64,000 bases of DNA from Sphingopyxis sp. BE259. Lineage in GTDB: Bacteria; Pseudomonadota; Alphaproteobacteria; Sphingomonadales; Sphingomonadaceae. The translations under genes and the position numbers were made by a program. The notes under the pieces are model-generated. The model saw nothing but the letters and a program-made list of their open reading frames with translations. It was not told the origin of the DNA and searched no databases. Positions 45,656 through 51,030 of this stretch are shown here, piece by piece. The stretch lies in NCBI RefSeq assembly GCF_031457495.1, contig NZ_JAVDWM010000001.1:2096001-2160000 (forward strand), in the 5' to 3' direction. Every line of letters starts with the position of its first letter. The first letter of the stretch is position 1.

Positions 45656-46660
45656 ATGGCAACAGATGATCGGGGCATTTCACGGCGGACGTTCGGGGTC
45701 GGCGCGGCAGGACTGGCCACCCTCGGCGCGTCACAGGCGTCGGCGAAACCGGCAAAGCCGAAAACGATCCCGACGGGCCAGCCCTTCATCCTGACGACAT
45801 GGGACTTCGGCCCCGGCGCCAACGCCGTCGGCTGGCCGATTCTCGCAGGCGGCGGTTCGGCGCTCGACGTCGTCGAATCCGCAATCAACCATGTCGAACT
45901 GCTTGGCGATTATTGGGTCGGCGCCGGAGGCGTTCCGAACGAGGTCGGCGAGACCACCCTCGATGCGATGATCATGTGGGGGCCGACGCACGATGCGGGC
46001 GCGGTCGGTTGCCTCAAGCGCGTAAAGAAAGCGATCTCGGTCGCGCGCAAGGTGATGGAGGAAACCCAGCACAGCCTGATCGTCGGCGACGATGCGACGC
46101 GCTTTGCGGCGCGTGTTGGCTTTACCGAAACCTCGCTGACCAGCGTCGTGTCGCAGCAGGCGTGGGACAAATGGGCCGCCAAGGGCGAGAAAACCAACGC
46201 GTTCGCTCCCGAACCGATCGGAAAAAATCCGAAACTCGCCGGACATGACACGGTCGGCAGCATCGCGCTCGATGCCGCGGGCAATTTGTGCGTCGGCTGC
46301 TCGACCAACGGGCGCGAGTTCAAGATCCCGGGCCGCGTCGGCGATTCGCCGATCATCGGCGCGGGTGCCTATGTCGATCAGGCGATCGGCGCCGCAGTCG
46401 CGACGGGCAACGGCGATGTGATGATGCGGTTCCTGCCAACCTATCATGTCGTCGAACTGATGCGCGGCGGGATGGCCCCCCAGGCGGCGGCGGAGGCCAC
46501 GATCCGGCGTATTGTCGATGCTGGATATGAAATCGACGGCGGCATCGCGGTCATCCGCCGCGACGGTAGGCACGGCGGCGCCAAGACCGGGTGGAAGGAT
46601 ACGCCGTTCAGCTATTCGGTCCAGACTGCGGCCGGAAATGTCAAAGTGCCCGTGGCATAG
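45656..46660 (+). CDS. N4-(beta-N-acetylglucosaminyl)-L-asparaginase (glycosylasparaginase family)
   Basis: 334 residues. A Tat signal (SRRTFGVGAAGLATLGASQASA) predicts export in folded form. The Ntn-hydrolase cleavage/nucleophile site is GHDTVGSIALD (Thr after Asp at about residue 200), followed by GRVGDSPIIGAGAYVDQ and GNGDVMMRFLPTYHV. The precursor should self-cleave into alpha and beta chains and hydrolyse the glycan-Asn bond or L-asparagine/isoaspartyl residues. ATG 45656 has a nearby GGAGG. Confidence 0.92.
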   Translation: MATDDRGISRRTFGVGAAGLATLGASQASAKPAKPKTIPTGQPFILTTWDFGPGANAVGWPILAGGGSALDVVESAINHVELLGDYWVGAGGVPNEVGETTLDAMIMWGPTHDAGAVGCLKRVKKAISVARKVMEETQHSLIVGDDATRFAARVGFTETSLTSVVSQQAWDKWAAKGEKTNAFAPEPIGKNPKLAGHDTVGSIALDAAGNLCVGCSTNGREFKIPGRVGDSPIIGAGAYVDQAIGAAVATGNGDVMMRFLPTYHVVELMRGGMAPQAAAEATIRRIVDAGYEIDGGIAVIRRDGRHGGAKTGWKDTPFSYSVQTAAGNVKVPVA

Positions 46661-46742
46661 AAGCGCGGCGCCGGACCGGGATTTGGGCGGCCCCGGCGCA
46701 GCCCCCTTCCTTCACGGCGCCAAACCCCCTACATGGCCGCGC

Positions 46743-47930
46743 ATGGAAACCAGAGCCGGCGACCCCGGGGCTTTTGCCCATTTCGACCTCACCCGCGTCC
46801 CCTCGCCCGCCTTTGTCGTGGATGCGGCAAAGATACGCGCCAATCTCTCGGTGCTGCGCCATATCGGCGATGCGTCGGGTGCGCGGGTACTCGCGGCGCT
46901 AAAGGCGTTTTCCATGTGGTCGCTGGGTCGCACCGTTACCGAATATCTCGACGGTGTCTGCGCCTCGGGGCTCTACGAGGCGAAGCTCGGCCGCGAGGAA
47001 TATGGCGGCGCGGACGGGGACAAAGAGGTCGCGACCTATTGCGCCGGCTACAAGGAAGCCGACCTGCCCGAAATCGCGGCGCTGTCGGATCACCTCATCT
47101 TCAATTCGCCGGGGCAGATCGCCCGGTTTCGTCCGCTGCTGGATGACCTTCGCGCACAAGGGGCGACGTTCGACGTCGGTCTGCGGATCAACCCGATGCA
47201 CAGCGAGGGCGAAACGCCGAAATACGACCCGGCGGCGCCGTGCAGCCGCCTGGGCTTTCCGGTCACCCAGCTGCTGCCCGAGCATATGCAGGGCATCGAC
47301 GGCATTCATATGCATAGCCTGTGCGAACAGGATTTCCCGCCGCTCCAGCGCACTTGGGAAGCCGTGCAGCCGATGCTGCGGCCCTTCTTTGGCCAGCTCA
47401 AATGGATCAACTTCGGTGGTGGCCATCATGTGACACGCGCCGATTATCAGGTCGACGATCTGATCGCGTTCCTGAAACAGGTGCGCGCCGCGACCGACTG
47501 CGACGTGATGATCGAACCCGGTGAAGCGATCGCACTCGACGCTGGCATTCTTGTCGGAGAGATTCTCGACCTGTTCGACAATGGCATGCCGATCGGCATC
47601 ACCGATATTTCGGCGACCTGCCACATGCCCGATGTCATCGAAGCGCCCTATCGCCCGGCGATGCTGGGCGAAGGCGATGAGGGGATGCCGGTGCGCCTTG
47701 GTGGCCCCTCATGCCTCGCGGGCGACGTCATCGGCGACTACCGCGTCCCCGGCGGCGCCCGCATCGGCGAGCGTTTCGCTTTCCTCGACCAAGCGCATTA
47801 TTCGATGGTCAAAACCAACACCTTCAACGGCGTCCCGCTGCCGTCGATCTGGCTCTGGGACAGTGAGACTGACGAGCTCAAGCTGATCCGCGAGTTCGGG
47901 TATGAGGATTTCAAGACGCGCCTCAGTTGA
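46743..47930 (+). CDS. nspC: Carboxyspermidine (carboxynorspermidine) decarboxylase
   Basis: 395 residues, alanine-racemase-fold PLP decarboxylase. Features: PSPAFVVDAAKIRANL, the PLP lysine in LAALKAFSMW, CASGLYEAKLGREEYGG, HMHSLCEQDFPPL, INFGGGHHVTR and MIEPGEAIALDAG. It decarboxylates carboxyspermidine to spermidine. ATG 46743 is chosen though no clear Shine-Dalgarno is present. Tail-to-tail overlap (8 bp) with the oxidoreductase gene on the other strand. Confidence 0.94.
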   Translation: METRAGDPGAFAHFDLTRVPSPAFVVDAAKIRANLSVLRHIGDASGARVLAALKAFSMWSLGRTVTEYLDGVCASGLYEAKLGREEYGGADGDKEVATYCAGYKEADLPEIAALSDHLIFNSPGQIARFRPLLDDLRAQGATFDVGLRINPMHSEGETPKYDPAAPCSRLGFPVTQLLPEHMQGIDGIHMHSLCEQDFPPLQRTWEAVQPMLRPFFGQLKWINFGGGHHVTRADYQVDDLIAFLKQVRAATDCDVMIEPGEAIALDAGILVGEILDLFDNGMPIGITDISATCHMPDVIEAPYRPAMLGEGDEGMPVRLGGPSCLAGDVIGDYRVPGGARIGERFAFLDQAHYSMVKTNTFNGVPLPSIWLWDSETDELKLIREFGYEDFKTRLS

Positions 47931-49581
47931 GGTCCGCGCCGACCTCCGCCAGCGCCTGATGAATGTCGCTGACCACCACCGACCCCTCGCCGACCGACGA
48001 CGCGACGCGCTTCACCGATCCCTTGCGGACATCGCCGATGGCATAGATGCGCGGCCAACTCGTCTCGTACCGGCTGGGCATCCGGTCGAGCGACCAGCCC
48101 GCCTTCACCAGTTCCATTGGCGAAATGTCGGCACCTGTTTTCACAAAGCCGCGCTCGTCGCACACCATTTCCTTTGGCAACCAGCCGGTGTTCGGGCTGG
48201 CGCCGAGGAACAGGAACAGGAAGCGGCAGTCGCAATGGCCTTCCTCGCCGGTCTCGCGGTCACGATAGGTAAGCCCGGCGAGCCCGTCGTCGCCATGCAG
48301 CGCGACCACGTCAGTCGACGGGATGATCTCGATGTTCGGATGGTCTTCGAGCCGCCTGACCAGATATTCGGACATCGTTTCGCGCAGGCTCTTGCGGCGA
48401 AAAATGACATAGACCTTCTTGGCAACGCCCGCGAGATAGATCGCCCCCTGCCCCGCCGAATTGCCCGAGCCGACGACCGTGACCTCGGCGTTGCCGCACA
48501 GCTGCGCTTCCATCGGGGTCGCGCCATAATAGATGCCGCGCCCTTCATAAGCCTCGATCCCCTCGATCGGCAGGCGCTGATATTGCGCGCCCGAAGCGAC
48601 GACTACCGCGCGGCTGCGGAGCTTGCGCCCGTCGGCCAGATGAAGGCAATAGACGTCCTCGTCACGCATGATCGCCGTGCCGCGCACCGGCGCGACCAGC
48701 CGCGCGCCGAACTTCTGCGCCTGCACCGTCGCGCGCCGCGCCAGCTCATTGCCCGAAATGCCGGTCGGAAAGCCGAGGTAGTTCTCGATCTTTGACGATG
48801 TTCCGGCCTGTCCGCCCGGCGCGAGCGCGTCGAGCCCGATGACCGTCAGCCCTTCGGACGCCGCATAGACCGCCGCCGCCAACCCGCCCGGCCCGCTACC
48901 CACGACGATGACATCGGCGGTCGAGCCATCGGGAAGCAGGTCGAGCCCGAGCGCTGCCGCGAGCTGTTCGGGCGTCGGCTGGACCAGCACATCGGCGGCA
49001 CCGAGGATGACGACTGGAAGTTGCTCCCCGTTGATATTGCGCTCGCCCATCAGGTGTCCGGCCACCGGCCCGTCGACGGGGTCGAACCAGCGATGTGCAA
49101 CGCCATGCTTCATAAGCAGGTCGCGCAGCGCATAGACACTGCGATCCATTGCGGCGCCGATCACAATCGTCACCGCAAAACCGCGCTGGTTGCTGAACTC
49201 GCGCCGCGCCGAAAGCACCCGCACGAAAATGTCCGAATAATGCGAATTGCCGGCGATCAGCCGCTGGAAATCGGCGTGCTTGATCCGCAATATCTCGCCA
49301 TCGGCGCCCATTTCGACCCGCGACAGATGCCGCTGCCCGGTCAGCACCGACAGATCGCCCGCGAACTGCCCGCGCTCCATCCACCCGACGCGCTTCCGAC
49401 CTTCGTCGGTGGACGCAAAAATATCGGTATGGCCCGACAGGGTGATGATGCAATCGGGCGCCATTGCGCCCTCTTCGATGATCAGATCGCCAGCGCGATG
49501 CGATTCGACCGTACCGAACGCCAGCAGTTCCTGCAGCTCGGCATCAGAGAAAGTATGATTCACATCAGCAGGAGTAACCAT
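47923..49581 (-). CDS. Cyclic-nucleotide-binding domain/thioredoxin-reductase-like flavoprotein
   Basis: 552 residues. Residues about 1-130 form a cNMP-binding-like beta-roll (GDLIIEEGAMAPD, GQFAGDLSVLTGQ), the middle about 135-220 is a linker with a thioredoxin-like fold, and 225-550 is a TrxB-like FAD/NADPH module (VIVVGSGPGGLAAAVYA; NADPH site TVVGSGNSAGQGAIYLA). The usual CxxC redox pair of thioredoxin reductase is replaced: YYGATPMEAQLCG has no Cys pair. It thus is not a canonical disulfide reductase; it may reduce an unknown partner or act as an NAD(P)H oxidase in redox signalling. ATG 49581 has weak ribosome-site support. Confidence 0.9.
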   Translation of the reverse strand: MVTPADVNHTFSDAELQELLAFGTVESHRAGDLIIEEGAMAPDCIITLSGHTDIFASTDEGRKRVGWMERGQFAGDLSVLTGQRHLSRVEMGADGEILRIKHADFQRLIAGNSHYSDIFVRVLSARREFSNQRGFAVTIVIGAAMDRSVYALRDLLMKHGVAHRWFDPVDGPVAGHLMGERNINGEQLPVVILGAADVLVQPTPEQLAAALGLDLLPDGSTADVIVVGSGPGGLAAAVYAASEGLTVIGLDALAPGGQAGTSSKIENYLGFPTGISGNELARRATVQAQKFGARLVAPVRGTAIMRDEDVYCLHLADGRKLRSRAVVVASGAQYQRLPIEGIEAYEGRGIYYGATPMEAQLCGNAEVTVVGSGNSAGQGAIYLAGVAKKVYVIFRRKSLRETMSEYLVRRLEDHPNIEIIPSTDVVALHGDDGLAGLTYRDRETGEEGHCDCRFLFLFLGASPNTGWLPKEMVCDERGFVKTGADISPMELVKAGWSLDRMPSRYETSWPRIYAIGDVRKGSVKRVASSVGEGSVVVSDIHQALAEVGADLN

Positions 49582-49717
49582 GGCCAGCGCGTCCTTGTTG
49601 GCGTTGCAGAGGGGTTGCCTTAGCGCAGAGCTGATGCCCTGTCTCGATTTTGCCCCGTTCGGCGCGCTACTGCCCCGCTTCGCCCTTTGTGTTACTGCGG
49701 CGTTACAAAATTACGCG

Positions 49718-49786
49718 ATGGGGTCTTTACATGGGGGGACCCCCTGCATATATCGCCGTCCGCTGCCCCAGGGGGACTTCCAATAA
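49718..49786 (+). CDS. Putative 22-residue leader peptide of ornithine decarboxylase
   Basis: An open frame with ATG 49718 and TAA 49784-49786 encoding MGSLHGGTPCIYRRPLPQGD plus FQ, located 51 bp before the ornithine decarboxylase start. It has no strong ribosome site. It overlaps the C-rich block (49736-49745) that can pair with the downstream Shine-Dalgarno region, so translation through it would disturb that pairing. It includes YRRPLPQ with two arginines and two prolines, possible stalling codons. It resembles in layout the speFL leader peptides of gammaproteobacteria, but not in sequence. Confidence 0.4.
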   Translation: MGSLHGGTPCIYRRPLPQGDFQ

Positions 49787-49836
49787 CCGCAAGGCAGCCT
49801 TGTCGTTTACCGTTACACTTTTGGGGGTCCCTTGCA
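49718..49836 (+). promoter_or_regulatory. Ornithine decarboxylase leader with alternative pairing of the ribosome site
   Basis: The block GGGACCCCC at 49736-49744 is exactly complementary to GGGGGTCCC at 49823-49831, which contains the probable Shine-Dalgarno of the TTG start at 49837. The same C-tract can instead pair with GGGGTC at 49720-49725 or, as CCCCCT (49740-49745), with AGGGGG at 49770-49775. The three pairings are mutually exclusive, as in riboswitches or peptide-coupled attenuators. Polyamine or ornithine control is an inference; an Rfam speF-motif comparison was not possible. Confidence 0.55.
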
Positions 49837-51030
49837 TTGCACCAGCATCATAGCGCCCACGGGCTGATTCAGGCACTTTCGCCGGTCGAACCCGTCACGC
49901 TCGTCCGCCCGCACGCCGCGCGGCGCGCAGCGCGTTTCTTCATTGACCGGTTTCCCGGCACGACCATGTATGCGGTCAAGGCGAATCCGTCCGCTGACCT
50001 GCTGCGCGTGCTGTGGGATTCGGGCGTCACCCATTACGACGTCGCCTCGATCGCCGAGGTCCGACTGGTATCGCGCACCCTGCCGCAGGCGACGCTGTGC
50101 TTCATGCATCCGGTGAAGGCCGAGGAAGCGATTTCCGAAGCCTATTGGAAGCATGGCGTGCGCACCTTCTCGCTCGACACGATGGACGAACTGGAAAAGA
50201 TCGTCCGCGCGACCGAAGGCGCCGCCGACCTCAACCTGCTCGTGCGCCTGCGAGTCTCGTCCGACCACAGCAAGCTCAGCCTCGCCGCCAAATTTGGCGC
50301 CGAAGCCGACGAAGTGGCCGAACTGCTGATGGCAACGCGGCAGGCCGCCGACGCGCTCGGCATCTGCTTCCACGTCGGCAGCCAGGCGATGACCCCGCAC
50401 GCCTATGCCCAGGCGATGGAGCGCGTCCGCGCCGCGATCGTTGCCGCGTCGGTCACCGTCGACATCATCGATGTCGGGGGCGGTTTTCCGTCGTCCTATC
50501 CCGGCATGGAGCCTCCGCCGCTCGACGCCTATTTCGACACCATCCACCGCAGCTTCGAAAGCCTGCCGATCAGCTATTCGGCCGAACTGTGGTGCGAACC
50601 CGGCCGCGCGCTGTCGGCCGAGTATAGCTCGCTGATCGTCCGCGTCGAAAAGCGCCGCGGCGAAGAATTGTACATCAACGACGGCGCCTATGGCGCGCTG
50701 TTCGACGCCGCGCATGTCGGCTGGCGCTTCCCCGTGTCGCTGCAACGCGACGTCGAAAGCGATGCCGAGCTGGTGCCGTTCAGCTTCTATGGGCCGACCT
50801 GCGACGATCTAGACCATATGGCCGGCCCCTTCTTCCTGCCCGCGGACATCAAGGCGGGCGATTTCATCGAAATCGGCATGCTCGGTGCCTATGGCTGCGC
50901 GATGCGGACCAAGTTCAACGGCTTTGGCGCTGACGAAACCCACGTCGTCAGCGACGAGCCGATGGTCAGCCTCTACACCGGCGAAGTCGAACAGGAACGC
51001 CGCAGCGCGACGGTGACCAAGCTGTTCTGA
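49837..51030 (+). CDS. Ornithine decarboxylase (alanine-racemase-fold, ODC type)
   Basis: 397 residues; PLP decarboxylase making putrescine from ornithine. Motifs: the PLP lysine in MYAVKANPSADLL, the dimer/His region LGICFHVGSQAMTPHAYAQAM, IDVGGGFPSSYPGM, CEPGRALSAEYSS, and FYGPTCDDLDHM (the catalytic Cys loop that distinguishes ODC). Lysine as a second substrate cannot be excluded. The start is inferred as TTG 49837 behind GGGGG at 9 nt. With the genes at 43907 and 46743 it completes the carboxyspermidine route. Downstream lies a strong terminator. Confidence 0.92.
   Translation: MHQHHSAHGLIQALSPVEPVTLVRPHAARRAARFFIDRFPGTTMYAVKANPSADLLRVLWDSGVTHYDVASIAEVRLVSRTLPQATLCFMHPVKAEEAISEAYWKHGVRTFSLDTMDELEKIVRATEGAADLNLLVRLRVSSDHSKLSLAAKFGAEADEVAELLMATRQAADALGICFHVGSQAMTPHAYAQAMERVRAAIVAASVTVDIIDVGGGFPSSYPGMEPPPLDAYFDTIHRSFESLPISYSAELWCEPGRALSAEYSSLIVRVEKRRGEELYINDGAYGALFDAAHVGWRFPVSLQRDVESDAELVPFSFYGPTCDDLDHMAGPFFLPADIKAGDFIEIGMLGAYGCAMRTKFNGFGADETHVVSDEPMVSLYTGEVEQERRSATVTKLF

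Follow-up and report, generated by a model that had tools for sequence, protein, structure and literature searches.

What controls translation of the ornithine decarboxylase-like gene of Sphingopyxis sp. BE259, and which stretches of DNA in front of that gene belong to the controlling RNA? Within the window (the whole stretch of 64,000 nucleotides that was analysed), the first-pass annotation described an undescribed switch in which a C-rich block inside a 22-codon frame pairs either with the ribosome site of the enzyme gene or with one of two other partners. All of the strings in that description are present: an ATG..TAA frame of 22 codons plus stop (49718-49786), the block GGGACCCCC (49736-49744) and the ribosome-site segment GGGGGTCCC (49823-49831) as exact reverse complements, and the alternative partners GGGGTC (49720-49725) and AGGGGG (49770-49775). 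Translational control is also upheld by a conserved pairing over the enzyme's ribosome site; however, the 22-codon frame and the C-block are the wrong parts. Nor is the element new, as the window leader is almost certainly a member of the odc1 motif, an already known element whose published description it matches (Brewer et al. 2021; PMC8632094). In window coordinates, the features are:

49726..49731, plus strand: -35-like hexamer TTTACA of a putative promoter (loose pattern, 79 of 79 relatives; strict scan negative)
49749..49754, plus strand: -10-like hexamer TATATC, with a putative transcript start at about 49760 (position and conservation)
49760..49839, plus strand: odc1 leader RNA core, through the main start codon (covariance model R1, 78.8 bits, E 5.2e-18)
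49762..49767, plus strand: pseudoknot strand 1, GCUGCC (covariation, 91 leaders)
49773..49783, plus strand: anti-ribosome-site strand GGGACUUCCAA (at least nine uninterrupted pairs in 81 of 99 leaders)
49786..49792, plus strand: conserved unpaired loop ACCGCAA (nearly invariant in alignments A1 and A3)
49793..49798, plus strand: pseudoknot strand 2, GGCAGC (covariation, 91 leaders)
49821..49831, plus strand: ribosome-site strand UUGGGGGUCCC (pairs with 49773-49783)
49832..49867, plus strand: uORF of 11 codons with a UUG start (MHCTSIIAPTG, first residue read as M) and a TGA stop, overlapping the enzyme frame (163 of 166 loci)
49837..51030, plus strand: ornithine decarboxylase-like PLP enzyme with a UUG start (PF02784 and PF00278)

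The product of the gene at 49837-51030 was identified as an ornithine/DAP/arginine decarboxylase-type PLP enzyme (PF02784, E 3.6e-35; PF00278), and its closest named relatives are from Sphingopyxis. Seven NCBIfam models match this protein, none at its cut-off, so ornithine decarboxylase activity is likely rather than proven. Upstream, within 46512-47930, is a gene resembling nspC (carboxynorspermidine decarboxylase; 381.5 bits, below the cut-off of 409.05), and because of it the gene setting of the leader looks like polyamine synthesis. The minus strand at 47923-49581 encodes, divergently from the decarboxylase gene, a protein that resembles thioredoxin reductase and carries a cyclic-nucleotide-binding domain at its N terminus (PF00027 and PF07992).

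The two promoter-like hexamers (TTTACA-17 nt-TATATC, 49726-49754) end 5 nt 5' of the conserved leader, whose conserved stretch begins at 49760. Using loose patterns of our own making, we located both hexamers in the corresponding position in every one of 79 named relatives; an 80th relative, L080, was left out of this count, its contig ending inside the leader. With a stricter pattern, 8 of 80 rows had no match, and a strict sigma-70 consensus scan of 49600-49900 yielded 0 promoters. Based on position and conservation, 49726-49754 is a candidate promoter, and transcription would begin near 49760. With such a start, the ATG of the 22-codon frame and the C-block would be promoter DNA: the frame would begin upstream of the -35 hexamer, and the C-block is probably absent from the RNA because it lies between the hexamers. 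The first-pass annotation had staked the frame on its conservation among relatives, yet the start codon occurs at the homologous place in only 3 of 79 (two with the same peptide, and one probably by chance), and an exact 9-nt complement of the ribosome site occurs in the promoter region of 28 of 79. Position relative to the promoter-like hexamers, together with this poor conservation, led us to exclude both as parts of the RNA, which removes the 22-codon frame as a false lead and sets the right coordinates on a known, unsolved control RNA. Within the spacer between the hexamers is a near inverted repeat, GGGGGGACCCCC (49733-49744), that has a similar form in many Sphingopyxis relatives and a single occurrence in the window's genome; it is possibly an operator.

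The consensus of the leader core is CCGCUGCCCCA..GGGACUUCCA..ACCGCAAGGCAGC..UUGG(A/G)GGUCCC-UUG-NN-UUG. The R1 hit in the window's genome (G000:C1:2145760-2145839) comes from a model for which the window was among the sequences used. We carried out a covariance search with 100 of 108 representative leaders, of which the window is L001, leaving out L080 (truncated), L092 and L216 (to cap the set at 100), L162, L171 and L172 (long insert), and L183 and L188 (degenerate). All 100 match the model at E ≤0.001, most of them having been found with it and some having been used to build R1. In the predicted fold, a pseudoknot of GCUGCC (49762-49767) with GGCAGC (49793-49798) crosses the ribosome-site helix formed by 49773-49783 and 49821-49831. 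By an anchor reading, which probably misread L176 and L185, all six pairs of the pseudoknot can form in 93 of the 100 leaders, and the remaining 7 contain mispairs. We aligned 91 of these leaders with MAFFT, omitting nine because of hairpin inserts or a misread start; in this alignment, 99.1% of the pseudoknot cells are paired, three of the six pairs have changed on both sides, and none of 500 shuffles attains even one of five measures. Slid versions of the pseudoknot pair in at most 50.5% of cells; the +3 slide, with 50.5% of cells paired, has a covariation score of 0.081 versus 0.093 for the unslid pairing, and we counted this against the mechanism that we favour. Covariation, which the first-pass annotation had asked to be examined in such leaders, is found in the pseudoknot.

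The ribosome-site helix runs for at least nine pairs without interruption in 81 of 99 leaders and for three to eight in the other 18; L159 lacks the strand. The partner of the ribosome site, GGGACTTCCAA (49773-49783), is far better conserved than the C-block. Folding energy, computed with a tool that cannot score pseudoknots, was unexceptional relative to shuffles (z 0.34 for 49718-49836, -0.03 for 49760-49870, and 0.50 for 49690-49880). It is very probable that the leader gives rise to an RNA that folds and controls translation. A hairpin that would compete in Sphingopyxis leaders (CAAGG-CAG-CCUUG) was considered and rejected, being absent by eye from many relatives. In L168, L169, L173, L175, L178, L181 and L184, pseudoknot strand 1 is followed by an extra, often hairpin-like stretch before the anti-ribosome-site strand begins; in L162, L166, L171 and L172 (genus g177), a long insert separates pseudoknot strand 2 from the ribosome site.

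Directly after the ribosome site are two UUG starts 5 nt apart, of which 49832 opens the uORF and 49837 opens the enzyme frame. A short frame thus does form part of the device, as the first-pass annotation had supposed, but it is this 11-codon uORF and not the 22-codon frame, which is poorly conserved and probably untranscribed. We scanned 230 loci (229 from L001-L233, the four RF00518 loci having been left out, plus the window) with a pattern of a ribosome site followed by two starts, composed after the relatives had been inspected; this arrangement occurs in 227 of the 230 loci, once each, and the exceptions, L191-L193, are distant paralogues. The 227 loci reduce to 166 unique sequences, whose encoded proteins are 65-100% identical to the window enzyme. 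The uORF is 11 codons long in 163 of these 166, the exceptions being L177 (48 codons), L188 (22) and L205 (9). Its start is UUG in 160, GUG in 5 and AUG in 1, and the main start is UUG in 165 and AUG in 1.

Enzyme codons 10 and 11 supply the stop at codon 12 of the uORF. At enzyme codon 10, CTA encodes 55 of 106 leucines and GTA encodes 59 of 60 valines; elsewhere in the same genes, these codons account for 1.4% of leucines and 4.5% of valines. The codon-12 stop was observed in 164 of 166 loci versus 30.4 expected from the enzyme residues and codon use. With one locus per genus, which lessens shared ancestry and does not remove it, the stop was observed in 46 of 47 genera versus 4.2 expected, and the uORF has exactly 11 codons in 45 of 47; in a 42-genus subset of these 47, 41 stops were observed versus 3.5 expected. 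Because the stop is kept across changes in the enzyme residues (VV, VA, LA, VI, LI and LT) while the uORF peptide varies widely over the 166 unique loci and 42 genera (e.g., SCTSIIARWG versus NCHLTLTPRR), the comparison indicates that selection holds the place at which the uORF terminates. The third residue of the peptide, a cysteine, is largely dictated by the overlapping main UUG start. Both loci that lose the stop, L177 and L188, also have a degenerate folded part, although two cases prove little. One prediction of the stop result is that moving the uORF stop should matter more than recoding its peptide.

The speF leader RNA (RF00518) precedes decarboxylase genes in alphaproteobacteria. It resembles the window leader in this placement and differs from it in its conserved sequences. 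Four of 142 genomes of the class match RF00518, three of them above the cut-off, whereas the window's genome has no match; by eye, the four matching sequences look unlike the window leader and have other conserved sequences. The absent model match and the differing members exclude RF00518 membership, and the first-pass annotation had correctly set the leader apart from this family. Against Rfam, the window leader had two weak matches to unrelated families, both on the opposite strand (E ≤10), and six relatives together had three matches of this unrelated, weak kind (E ≤1); the Rfam copy searched does not recognise the odc1 element. In enterobacteria, the speF leader frame is separate from the enzyme gene, and its effect comes from an ornithine- or polyamine-sensing peptide that stalls the ribosome. 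The window differs from that arrangement in that its uORF overlaps the enzyme start and encodes a poorly conserved peptide. In enterobacterial speF, a short frame together with alternative mRNA conformations controls ornithine decarboxylase (PMC6386406).

In the odc1 section of Brewer et al. (PMC8632094), the motif (uORF-25-1) is represented by 272 alphaproteobacterial examples, mostly before ornithine decarboxylase genes. In that description, the ribosome site is held within a stem, the 5' end pairs with the loop to give a pseudoknot, two nucleotides separate a pair of UUG starts, and the uORF encodes 11 residues. Relative to this section, the window instance shows no difference: it directly precedes an ornithine decarboxylase-type gene (PF02784, PF00278), its stem is formed by 49773-49783 with 49821-49831, its predicted covarying pseudoknot by 49762-49767 with 49793-49798, its UUG starts are at 49832 and 49837, and its 11-residue uORF is at 49832-49867. 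The same section reports that uORF length is fixed and calls most peptide positions highly conserved (PMC8632094). Our wider set departs from this description in its less conserved peptide, its GUG or AUG uORF starts (6 of 166), its three length exceptions, and a diverged form in another family; this diverged form and the selection on uORF stop position (46 of 47 genera) go beyond what the odc1 section contains. In E. coli reporters that carry the leader of Sphingomonas echinoides, translation begins at both starts and is about 3-fold stronger from that of the uORF; minimal medium gives higher expression than rich medium (PMC8632094). A literature search located the phrase "odc1 motif" only in PMC8632094 and found no follow-up study, though subscription journals may hold one.

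We used R1 with stricter search filters on two sets of genomes. In the order, 210 of 296 genomes gave a single match, and in a draw from the class, 5 of 385 genomes matched; all of these matches are in the window's family. There is one strong leader copy per genome, located before this enzyme. The 86 order genomes without a match include at least three of the window's family and at least 17 of other families, and with looser filters these three family members gave only weak matches (E 0.001 to 0.04). G292 lacks the enzyme, its best protein match being 29% identical, and G289 (L188) has a leader that is degenerate by eye. In G458 (L183), by eye, the pseudoknot and anti-site strands are gone, but both starts remain, as do the ribosome site and a uORF of 11 codons; it is a natural deletion worth comparing.

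In the mechanism that we favour, a transcript beginning near 49760 would form, within its first 72 nt, a helix occupying the ribosome site (49773-49783/49821-49831) and held by the crossing pseudoknot (49762-49767/49793-49798). Once the site is free, ribosomes would start either at 49832, on the out-of-frame uORF, or at 49837, on the enzyme. Enzyme output would then be set by the opening and closing of the site together with the division of initiations, each uORF start being a wasted one, so that the uORF would act as a decoy that drains initiations from the enzyme, with a polyamine-pathway metabolite as the signal. The transcript start, the locking by the pseudoknot in the cell, the decoy role and the polyamine-pathway signal are the steps that we infer. 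As a whole, this account is quite probable given the covarying pseudoknot, the ribosome-site helix, the double start, the conserved stop, the single match per genome and the published description; it is weakened by the lack of a known ligand, the ordinary folding energy, the short ribosome-site helices (18 of 99 leaders), the mispaired pseudoknots (7 of 100), and the loss of the fold in G458. A further proposal, that the conserved device is a partition of start sites with a decoy in which the uORF stop and not the peptide is selected, an architecture exceeding the described motif, could equally well prove right or wrong.

A strict metabolite-binding riboswitch, in which the pseudoknot and the ACCGCAA loop would bind a pathway substrate or product and alone gate the ribosome site, with the uORF secondary, is compatible with the favoured account and differs from it in the sensor. 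The unpaired loop and the pseudoknot are nearly invariant, changes at conserved loop positions just 5' of a pseudoknot strand abolish main-frame reporter expression, and in their odc1 section the authors propose such a riboswitch without naming a ligand (PMC8632094); this reading nevertheless has no known ligand, and it sits poorly with the strong selection on the uORF stop, which G458 keeps despite its lost fold, and we place its chances slightly short of even. By analogy with the enterobacterial speF leader peptide, the uORF peptide might instead stall the ribosome on ornithine or polyamines. The fixed length and stop of the uORF and the peptide conservation described for odc1 would suit such a sensor, but across genera the peptide is not conserved and its sequence drifts, the cysteine is largely imposed by the main UUG, and the diverged form presented below has only six codons, which makes an arrest peptide unlikely. 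That a C-block in the RNA pairs with the ribosome site under the governance of 22-codon frame translation is highly improbable despite the exact strings, given the counts of 3 and 28 among 79 relatives and the position of the block between hexamers present in all 79.

Among eleven enzyme homologues from other families of the order, 43-53% identical, ten have no such leader by eye, and the eleventh, in G048, carries a diverged leader. A search of its family (32 genomes) identified a second, in G228; by eye, four more enzyme loci of that family have no such leader.

In L246 and L247, a diverged leader resembling odc1, with an AUG-A-AUG double start and a 6-codon uORF, lies at about 1390-1510; both loci belong to another family of the order.

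A 31-nt core is identical in G048 and G228 and, allowing up to 3 mismatches, is found in no other of 396 order genomes. A looser 20-nt pattern matched 103 of 385 class genomes and was rejected as chance, since a backward control also gave many matches. Because it is represented by two sequences whose core shows no covariation, the diverged form is a lead and not a family; if it works alike, it would provide an independent sequence for finding the essential parts and the ligand. Both genomes share CUCUUGCCGAAUCGGGCCUUCGCAACGUCGGCAAC, a variable stretch, and then GUUGUGGAGGUC(C/U)C-AUG-A-AUG, with AUG starts 4 nt apart, and their 6-codon uORFs, MNGLLP and MNGLLY, both end in TAG. The putative helices of the diverged form are UUGCCGA/UCGGCAA and GGGCCUUCGCAACG/UGUUGUGGAGGUCC, and as read from the sequence the former can pair across the ribosome-site helix. 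In G048, a 14-pair helix is predicted over the ribosome site, with a z of -1.80 and 9 of 200 shuffles equally stable. Of 2000 composition shuffles, 1 gives a helix as long as the 15 pairs of G228, and 19 give one as long as the 14 pairs of G048.
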